In this document: positions 7,670-10,535 of the stretch, piece after piece | Layout of the letters: each line of letters opens with the position of its first letter | Numbering within the stretch: position 1 is the stretch's first letter | DNA from: Gemmatimonadota bacterium | GTDB lineage: Bacteria > Gemmatimonadota > Gemmatimonadetes > Longimicrobiales > Gaopeijiaceae | Reading direction: 5' to 3' | DNA: 64,000 nucleotides | Assembly (NCBI GenBank): GCA_030428885.1 | Contig: JAUIEJ010000001.1 | Coordinates: 496,001-560,000 of the forward strand | Notes under the pieces: model-generated | What the model was told of the DNA's origin: nothing | Database searches by the model: none | Seen by the model: the letters and a program-made list of their open reading frames with translations, nothing else | Translations under genes and position numbers: made by a program

Positions 7670-9259
7670 TCAGTTCCCCACCTGCTGGACCCGCTGGAAC
7701 TCCGCCACGGCGTTGATGTGGTTGATGAGCGCCTGGAGCTCCGAGAGGCGAGCCGTGGTGAGGGAGTTCTGGGCCGTGACCAACTCGAAGTTGGTGGCCA
7801 CGCCCACCTCGAACCGCGCCAACTCGGCCGAAACGTTCTGCTCGGCCGCCACCCGGCTGCGCTGGGCCGCCTCGTACTGCAGGAAGGTGTTCTGCACGGC
7901 GAGCCCCGCCGACGTGACCTGGGTCACGATGCCCAGTTCTTGATTGCGCAGGGCCAGTTCCTGCTGCCGGAACTGGAGCCGGGCCCGCTCCAGGGCCGCG
8001 GCCTGGGAATTGGTGCCCAGGGGGTAGGAGGCGTTGAGGGAGAGATTCCAGGTCGGGGCCTCGAAGTCGGCGATGGACTGAAGGCCGTCGGTGTATCCGC
8101 CGGCCGCCACCAGCACCGGGTCACCCCCCAGGTCGCCCCGCTGGAAGAGATCCCCGCCCACCCCCGCCAGCGAGTAGGAGGCCGTGAGGTCGAGGGTGGG
8201 CAGCTTGTTGCTCCGGGAGACGTCGAGGTTGACCTCCGAGATGCGGAGCTGCTGCTCTTGCTGACGGATGTCGGTCCGCTGGGCCAGGGCGCGCTGGATG
8301 GCGTCGTCCAGGTCCACCTCGGTGTCCACCAGTGTGGGGAGATCCACCGGGTTGAGGGTGGCCGTGAGGAGGGGGTCGCCGGCGCCGTCCAGGAGGAGCT
8401 GCTTGAGGGCCAGTTCCCGATTCCGCCAGGTGATCTCGGCGTTGAGGAGCGCCTGCTGGGCGCTGGCCACCTGGGCCTCCGACTGGATGACCTGGAACTC
8501 GGTGGCCCGGCCCAGTTGCTGACGCACCTGGTTCTCGGCCAGGAGCTGCTCGGCCTGGGCGAGGCTGAGCCGCTGGATCTCGATCTGCTCGATGGCGGCC
8601 CGCAGCGACCAGTAGGCGTTCTGCACCTGGAGGACGATGTTGGCGGCCTGGGTCTCGAGCTGGAGATCGGTGATCTGGCTCTGGATCTGCTGCGTCCGGA
8701 GGGCCGCCCGCTGGTTGTCGATGCTGAACCCGGCCAGAAGGGGCTGGCTGTAGCTGAGGTTCAGCGACGAGCTGTAGCTGGGGTTCCGGGTGGCGAACGA
8801 GTTGTTGGTCTCGGTCCGGGCGTTGTTGAAATTGGCGCTGAACCGGCCTCCCGACCACGACAGGAGCTTCGAGACCGAGGTGTTGAAGGTGGCCCGCTCG
8901 CTGGTGATGGACGAGCCTCCGTCGAGCTGGCTCGTGGAGAGCGACGTGGAGTTGTTGAAGCCGAAGGTGCCGCTGAGCGTCGGGCTGAAGGCGGCCTGGG
9001 CGGAGCGCAGGTTGTAGTCCTGGATCACCGGGTTCAGCCGGGCGCTCTGGAGGTTCAGGTTGACCTCGAGGGCTCGATCGATGGCCTCCTGGAGCGTCAT
9101 GGAGGTCAGGGTCACGCCGGGGTCCGCCGGAGGGCGCGCCTCGCCCACCGTGTAGGGCTCCACCACACCCAGGGCGGGGTCCTGGGCTGCGCCGGACGAC
9201 GGGGCCAGGATCGCTCCCGCCAACAGGGCCGCGGCGAGTCTCTTCGAGTACGTCTGCAT
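7670..9259 (-). CDS. TolC-family outer-membrane efflux protein
   Basis: The protein has 529 residues with a Sec signal peptide of about 24 residues (basic start, then AAALLAGAILAPSSGAAQ). Two OEP (TolC) repeats follow, rich in coiled-coil heptads and ending near IVTQVTSAGLAVQNTFLQYEAAQ and NVSAELARFEVGVATNFELVTAQNSL. TolC-family trimers form the outer-membrane duct of tripartite efflux pumps and type I secretion. No membrane-fusion protein or inner-membrane pump lies next to it, so it is an orphan or shared channel. The ATG at 9259 was chosen because the signal peptide begins there. Confidence 0.88.
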   Translation of the reverse strand: MQTYSKRLAAALLAGAILAPSSGAAQDPALGVVEPYTVGEARPPADPGVTLTSMTLQEAIDRALEVNLNLQSARLNPVIQDYNLRSAQAAFSPTLSGTFGFNNSTSLSTSQLDGGSSITSERATFNTSVSKLLSWSGGRFSANFNNARTETNNSFATRNPSYSSSLNLSYSQPLLAGFSIDNQRAALRTQQIQSQITDLQLETQAANIVLQVQNAYWSLRAAIEQIEIQRLSLAQAEQLLAENQVRQQLGRATEFQVIQSEAQVASAQQALLNAEITWRNRELALKQLLLDGAGDPLLTATLNPVDLPTLVDTEVDLDDAIQRALAQRTDIRQQEQQLRISEVNLDVSRSNKLPTLDLTASYSLAGVGGDLFQRGDLGGDPVLVAAGGYTDGLQSIADFEAPTWNLSLNASYPLGTNSQAAALERARLQFRQQELALRNQELGIVTQVTSAGLAVQNTFLQYEAAQRSRVAAEQNVSAELARFEVGVATNFELVTAQNSLTTARLSELQALINHINAVAEFQRVQQVGN

Positions 9260-9287
9260 GGGGAACCCCTGAATATCGTTTGAACTC

Positions 9288-9303
9288 GTCCGCGGTTGCG
9301 GAC
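9288..9303. promoter_or_regulatory. Inverted repeat upstream of the tolC-like gene
   Basis: A perfect 6-base inverted repeat, GTCCGC-GGTT-GCGGAC, lies 29 bases upstream of the efflux gene start, in the divergent region shared with the selenoprotein gene. Its size and position fit a repressor operator, but no regulator is encoded beside it. The rest of the 230-base divergent region (9260-9489) shows no gene and no clear sigma-70 promoter. Confidence 0.3.
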
Positions 9304-9489
9304 GGTGGAATGTCGGGAGGGTGCGGGATCTCGTCCACAGAGGACCGCCGAGAGCCCCGAAGCGTTGAACGAACGAGGGCCGCCGGCTTGCCCGTGCCCG
9401 GACCGGGGCGACACGTTCCAGCCGGGTGCCGGGCCGCCCCCGGGGACGAGACGCCCGAGCCACCGGGAACGTTAAATCATGGAGGCGGA

Positions 9490-10086
9490 GTGGCCCACAT
9501 TCCCTACGTCGACTACGACCAGGCCCAGGGCCTGCTGGCCCGGCTGTACCGCACCTACGATCGAGGCGACGGGCGCCTGGACAACATCATCCGCATCCAC
9601 TCCCTCAATCCCCGCTCCCTGAGGGACCACGTGGAGCTGTACGCCCACCTCATGCGGGGGCGGTCGCCCCTGAGTCGGGTACGGCGCGAGATGCTGGCGG
9701 TGGCGGTCTCTTCCATCAACGACTGCTTCTACTGAATCAACCATCACGGGGCGGGCCTCCGTACGCTCACCGGCTCTCCGGATCTGTCCCGGGCTCTGGC
9801 CCTGGACCCCGACGGGGCCGAGGTTTCTCCGGCCGATCGCGCCATGCTCGACTACGCGGCGCGTCTCACCCGGCGTCCGGCCTCGGTCGGGGAGGCCGAC
9901 GTGGATCGGCTGAAAGACCACGGATTCGACGACACGGCCATTCTCGACATCTGTCAGGTCGTGGCCTACTACAACTACGTGAATCGCCTGGCCGACGGCC
10001 TCGGCGTGGAGTTGGAAGACGAGTGGACCGACGACGACCTGACCCTCACGCGCAGCGAATTCGACGCGCGGCACTCCGGGGCCTGA
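9490..10086 (+). CDS. AhpD-like (CMD family) peroxidase-related selenoprotein, UGA read as Sec82
   Basis: Read as one 198-residue frame with the in-frame TGA at 9733-9735 decoded as selenocysteine, this is an alkylhydroperoxidase D-like (carboxymuconolactone decarboxylase family) enzyme. The N-terminal part ends VAVSSINDCFY (Cys79). The TGA falls at residue 82, exactly where the CxxC motif of this family has its second cysteine, and the same frame continues INHHGAGL, the expected histidine-rich stretch after CxxC. It then runs about 115 further codons with family-like content (LDYAARLTRRPASV..VDRLKDHGFDD..ILDICQVVAYYNYVNRLADGLG). The GTG start at 9490 follows a GGAGG. Known members reduce peroxides. 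If the TGA were a true stop, two non-functional halves would result. SelA/B/C/D must be encoded elsewhere. Confidence 0.8.
9746..9762 (+). promoter_or_regulatory. Candidate bacterial SECIS hairpin
   Basis: Starting 11 bases after the TGA, ACGGGG (9746-9751) pairs with CTCCGT (9757-9762) around the loop CGGGC, with one G-U pair. The apical loop begins 17 bases after the TGA and has G as its second base. That matches the loose bacterial SECIS description (a short stem, a small loop with an early G, about 16-37 bases past the UGA). Being GC-rich, such hairpins also arise by chance, so this supports but does not prove recoding. Confidence 0.5.
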
Positions 10087-10535
10087 CCGTAGCCCTGGTG
10101 GCGGGCTCCGCGGCGTGCGGCGACACGAGTGGGCCGTCGGGCGCCGAAGGGCTGTCGCCGGGCACGTACACGGTGCGCTTCGAGGTGGCGACGACGGTGG
10201 CCACTCCCGAGCCCCTTCGGGGACGCCACGACTTCACCTTCCGGGTGCGGGAGCCGGCGGCGGCGGCGACCGACGTGGAGCTGGTCTCGTCTCGTCGGCT
10301 TCCGCCGGAGGACGCGCCGGCCGTCCACGACTACCTGCGCATCGACCCCTCCCTCCTGGTCATCGAAGACACCCGGTGGCAGATCCGGCTGCCCTACGTG
10401 GACGGAGACTTCAGCGTGTCCGTGACGTTGCGGGAAGCCGACAACGGGGGCATCTCCACCGGAGCCGGCTGCTACGGACGGGCCGGCGCCACGGCCTCGT
10501 ACCTGGGGTCGGGGTGTGTGATCGAGCGGGAATGA
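10023..10535 (+). CDS. Lipoprotein, unknown function
   Basis: This encodes 170 residues if started at the GTG at 10023, which gives an arginine-rich n-region, a hydrophobic LTVALVAGS and a lipobox SAAC (Cys34). This start overlaps the selenoprotein gene by 64 bases; no better start exists closer to the signal. The mature protein begins with LSPGTYTVRFEVATTV and appears all-beta with two cysteines near the C-terminus. It resembles in layout the partial lipoprotein at the left edge. Function unknown. Confidence 0.5.
   Translation: MDRRRPDPHAQRIRRAALRGLTVALVAGSAACGDTSGPSGAEGLSPGTYTVRFEVATTVATPEPLRGRHDFTFRVREPAAAATDVELVSSRRLPPEDAPAVHDYLRIDPSLLVIEDTRWQIRLPYVDGDFSVSVTLREADNGGISTGAGCYGRAGATASYLGSGCVIERE

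Follow-up and report, generated by a model that had tools for sequence, protein, structure and literature searches.

The window analysed here is a 64,000-nucleotide stretch of a Gemmatimonadota genome (G000, contig C2, positions 496001-560000; assembly of 5.39 Mb in 23 contigs, 95% complete) whose nearest relatives in named collections carry the labels Gemmatimonadetes/Longimicrobiales. One frame runs on its forward strand from a GTG at 9490 to a TGA stop at 10084-10086, with an in-frame TGA at 9733-9735 as its single interruption; the coordinates given in the preliminary description for this frame and its sole break are exact. As encoded, the motif at the active site reads Cys79-Phe-Tyr-[TGA], and close homologues begin to align at the first or second residue of the window protein. 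The gene is flanked by a divergent TolC-type gene (7670-9463) and, on the other side, by an open reading frame (orf) that ends at 10535. This downstream orf (10087-10535) has no obvious in-frame ATG start, gave no Pfam match and may encode a lipoprotein (ALVAGSAACG); it is conserved at a related locus, L050 (69% over 139 aa). The features of the locus are as follows.

9481-9485, forward strand: GGAGG, probable ribosome-binding site judged from the sequence, 4 bases 5' of GTG 9490
9490-10086, forward strand: predicted AhpD-like (TIGR01926) selenoprotein gene, 198 residues with selenocysteine (Sec) at position 82, stop codon included
9688-9690, forward strand: Glu67, invariant, equivalent to Glu36 of PA0269 and Glu118 of Mycobacterium tuberculosis AhpD (PMC3141380)
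9724-9726, forward strand: Cys79, which opens the CxxU motif, TGC or TGT in all homologues
9733-9735, forward strand: UGA, codon 82, predicted to encode Sec
9745-9747, forward strand: His86, invariant, equivalent to His55 of PA0269 and His137 of M. tuberculosis AhpD (PMC3141380)
9746-9762, forward strand: probable bacterial SECIS hairpin (codon constraint, covariation, fold), 10 nt after the UGA

A long open frame is by itself weak evidence in DNA as GC-rich as this, where chance frames of 200-369 aa occur on both strands in overlap with the gene. The case rests on the homology found on either side of the TGA. In joined form, the protein matches TIGR01926 (peroxidase-related/AhpD-like) over profile positions 9-177 of 178 with 150.4 bits (cut-off 81.8), and the read-through product matches the Pfam CMD family with 39.5 bits (cut-off 23). 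The solved structure 3c1l (Mlr4105) aligns with the joined protein on both sides of the TGA (E 8e-35) and has Cys opposite it, as do the other closest solved structures, which are likewise "peroxidase-related" proteins. TGA stands at the aligned codon, with Cys three codons before it, in 110 of 110 homologous loci that cover the site, a count that says nothing of how frequent the Cys form is because these loci, the window's own included, are those that match the window protein best. They come from records labelled Gemmatimonadota, Chloroflexi, Acidobacteria, KSB1, Planctomycetes and others. All ten homologues without an internal stop that were checked have TGC or TGT at this codon, so the UGA aligns with Cys, as had been proposed, and an unrelated residue was never seen among the 110 TGA loci and the 10 Cys homologues. 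When the window gene was compared with five relatives, dN was markedly lower than dS both before and after the TGA (about 0.23-0.30 against 0.7-1.25 downstream of it).

These data bear on whether the TGA reflects an error in sequencing, or a recent nonsense mutation that has turned the gene of an ordinary Cys protein into a pseudogene. Such a reading could draw on the draft state of the assembly, with its 23 contigs, and on the existence of Cys homologues, but it must contend with a TGA that recurs at this codon in 110 loci from several phyla, with purifying selection downstream of the TGA and with constrained synonymous sites directly 3' of it. A sequencing error is excluded because the identical TGA is present in loci from independent assemblies, which make up most of the set, and the conservation of the codon refutes the pseudogene reading as well; we regard either as exceedingly improbable.

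Several further observations concern the distribution of the codon. Some loci were listed with two TGAs, which raised the idea of a UxxU motif; this was rejected, as the first Cys was always TGC or TGT in those inspected and the extra TGA lay elsewhere or beyond the aligned part. One Cys homologue (L134, genome G142) groups in the tree with the Sec proteins L175 and L176 (support 100/99), which suggests a change from Sec to Cys or the reverse. Several genomes of the window's family, such as G303, G287 and G118, contain a second TGA-containing paralogue, roughly 40-47% identical; the window genome has a single copy at E 1e-25.

The genome that carries the window also encodes the machinery for Sec. 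One tRNA-Sec (selC) scored over the cut-off (74.5 bits, gathering 47), with a TCA anticodon on which ARAGORN agrees, and SelB (317 bits, cut-off 242), SelA (519 bits, cut-off 268) and SelD (355 bits, cut-off 125) were found as well; selA, selB, selC and selD are thus all present above their cut-offs, in keeping with the preliminary description. The SelD gene (L017:1501-2439, contig C15) has an in-frame TGA of its own, within SHGAG-U-ACK, and is a second predicted selenoprotein.

The sequence just 3' of the UGA probably forms a bacterial SECIS element, as judged from a conserved stem, codon constraint and some covariation. The hairpin has a six-pair stem (9746-9751 with 9757-9762) and the apical loop CGGGC (9752-9756). 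The codons that follow the UGA, GGR GCG GGN CTY CGT, are conserved far above what the protein needs: among close relatives, GCG encodes Ala +6 in 33/33 and CGT encodes Arg +9 in 30/33, whereas all four codons occur at Ala +22 and CGT accounts for 1/27 at Arg +23. In 27 diverse sequences, 88% of stem cells were paired, compared with 30-51% when the stem was slid, although the figure of 88% is not unbiased because the sequences were hand-picked and clades with another hairpin were left out. Two stem pairs show changes on both sides in this set, and the fourth pair is C-G instead of G-C in 13 sequences of the larger set; in the full set of 110 loci, the six pairs are retained in 77-98%. The motif is absent from the Cys homologues. 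In single-sequence folding, the energy of the hairpin was no better than that of shuffles (z about 0), and no Rfam family matched the window, which leaves the SECIS unsupported by known RNA families. RF00031 matched nowhere in the genome, controls included, but this null is uninformative here because we take RF00031 to be a model of the eukaryotic SECIS. At six loci with the same UGA (L065, L068 and L071, from Chloroflexi/Anaerolineae, and L107, L116 and L123), the likely hairpin lies further downstream and differs in sequence; the position of the SECIS seems to vary from clade to clade.

Could the UGA be translated as one of the standard amino acids, for instance Trp, or serve as a regulated stop, with no Sec involved? 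The unexceptional stability of the hairpin would fit such readthrough. In the stop-free homologues, though, the aligned residue is the catalytic Cys and never Trp; the genome has the full Sec machinery, its SelD has a TGA too, and the codon constraint is consistent with a SECIS. We therefore judge readthrough of this kind highly improbable. Almost certainly, the in-frame UGA is a Sec codon that stands in for the second cysteine of a peroxidase-type, AhpD-like protein, and Sec is very likely inserted at codon 82.

An AlphaFold2 model built from 43 sequences (pLDDT 96.2) has 2pfx, 3c1l, 6k40 and 2prr as its best PDB matches and predicts an AhpD-like, all-helical fold for the window protein. Five positions, E67, C79, Y81, C/U82 and H86, are invariant among the 43 aligned proteins, and at a constant offset of 31 they correspond to E36, C48, Y50, C51 and H55 of PA0269 from Pseudomonas aeruginosa (PDB 2O4D), where Glu36, Cys48, Tyr50, Cys51 and His55 form a relay for protons (PMC3141380). 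PA0269 and Mlr4105 (3C1L) share their fold with the window protein but have Cys at the second position of the motif, where the window protein would have Sec. The active-site logic of Glu, CxxC and His is also that of M. tuberculosis AhpD, whose motif lies elsewhere in the chain and which has His132 instead of Tyr (PMC3141380); against the model of this type, AhpD proper (TIGR00777), the window protein scored only 18.7 bits (cut-off 191.95). It shares the CFYU motif and the AhpD-like domain with the (seleno)proteins of AhpD_rel_CFYUT (NF041238), a longer model of 357 positions, but is not a member because it scored 60.2 bits against a cut-off of 175.

Collectively, the TIGR01926 match, the Sec machinery, the TGA conserved opposite Cys, the probable SECIS and the mapping of the relay residues identify the protein as a CxxU selenoprotein, and thereby bear out the Cys79-x-x-Sec82 motif that had been proposed. 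Proteins of this kind are not new, since TIGR01926 CxxU selenoproteins are already in the literature: CxxU AhpD-like selenoproteins were predicted in 2005 from Sargasso Sea data (27 sequences, COG2128; PMC1088965) and again from GOS data (299 sequences; PMC2398784), and "AhpD-like protein, TIGR01926, CxxU" is an entry in a 2026 review (PMC13188914). By these sources, the known proteins (TIGR01926/COG2128) share with ours the family model, the CxxU motif with Sec second and widespread Cys homologues. The differences lie in the host, a Gemmatimonadota, a phylum not named in the available text of the 2026 review (PMC13188914), and in the hut operon of the relatives, which goes unmentioned in the accessible parts of PMC1088965, PMC2398784 and PMC13188914. 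A link of hut genes with AhpD or selenoproteins was not found in the open-access papers searched.

What is new here is the position of the gene in its relatives. In a tree of 70 proteins, the window copy falls in a clade of 40 rows (support 100/97), and in 33 of these 40 members the gene lies directly upstream of hutH. The order is the Sec-AhpD gene, then hutH (histidine ammonia-lyase) and hutU (urocanase), with hutF (formimidoylglutamate deiminase) convergent to them (e.g., Sec-AhpD-hutH-hutU at L144:5612-10180, L145-L147 and L149), and the stop codon of the AhpD gene often shares four bases with the start of hutH, as ATGA or GTGA. The seven members without hutH adjacency come from genomes G391, G264, G192 and G339, in which hutH gave no match at the threshold used, and from the window, L050 and L051, which form a clade of their own (98/86) and have the TolC-type neighbour in common. 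The window organism has its hutH and hutU on contig C18 (L151, G000:C18:358000-367466), with a HutF-like gene nearby and no AhpD match in that region. Most simply, the window gene would derive from a gene of the hut operon and have moved since, with the direction of the move resting on a tree that is unrooted within the clade and has some weak inner branches. At a Chloroflexi-labelled locus (L053), hutU lies just upstream of the Sec-AhpD copy. A more distant Sec-AhpD homologue sits in a conserved cluster together with trpF and further genes at seven loci (L094, L096, L098, L102, L103, L110 and L113) from some Gemmatimonadota.

The explanation that we favour, with a probability of roughly 93%, is that of a Sec-containing AhpD-like oxidoreductase whose UGA is decoded by SelB and the hairpin, with AhpD-type chemistry and a hut-linked ancestry. 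The product would be a 198-residue, all-helical, AhpD-like (TIGR01926) thiol/selenol oxidoreductase with the active site Cys79-Phe-Tyr-Sec82, and the UGA would be translated as Sec by the SelB and tRNA-Sec of the genome, with the assistance of the hairpin. By analogy with AhpD, a Glu67/Tyr81/His86 relay may activate the Sec82 selenolate, which would reduce a hydroperoxide or an oxidised partner; Cys79 would then resolve the selenenyl intermediate, and a thiol reductant would reopen the resulting Cys79-Sec82 bond. Peroxidase or selenol-disulfide chemistry is likely on these grounds, and it is plausible that part of the organism's peroxide defence is selenium-dependent. Against the peroxidase part stands the weak, cysteine-dependent peroxidase activity of PA0269 (PMC3141380), and against the hut part the absence of hut linkage in the window organism itself. 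Because the gene heads the hut operon in relatives and the window gene belongs to that clade, its ancestral task was probably tied to histidine breakdown, e.g., clearing peroxides formed there.

A present role linked to histidine catabolism is possible, and the gene neighbourhood of the relatives points to such a role, narrower than peroxide defence. We consider it an even bet that the Sec protein has a general part in peroxide defence, as an AhpC reductase or thiol-disulfide oxidoreductase, and that its hut neighbours in relatives reflect no more than convenient co-expression: M. tuberculosis AhpD serves AhpC (PMC3141380), other neighbours such as trpF occur beyond the clade in some Gemmatimonadota, and the window copy and those of the hutH-less genomes persist outside hut. 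The overlap or close spacing with hutH is nevertheless retained across many genera, which argues for a specific hut link, and no ahpC was found among the scanned window genes adjoining the selenoprotein gene. We put forward more tentatively, at somewhat longer than even odds, that Sec-AhpD is a dedicated part of histidine catabolism in this Gemmatimonadota family, translated in coupling with hutH, and that it removes a hydroperoxide derived from an intermediate or maintains an enzyme of the pathway in its reduced state. Among the intermediates, imidazolonepropionate is readily oxidised by air.

Taken together, these results confirm a selenoprotein gene that standard annotation likely splits or truncates at the UGA. 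The near-constant position before hutH in relatives gives an AhpD-like selenoprotein a concrete, testable physiological setting. If the dedicated role in the hut pathway is true, histidine use in this family would be selenium-dependent.
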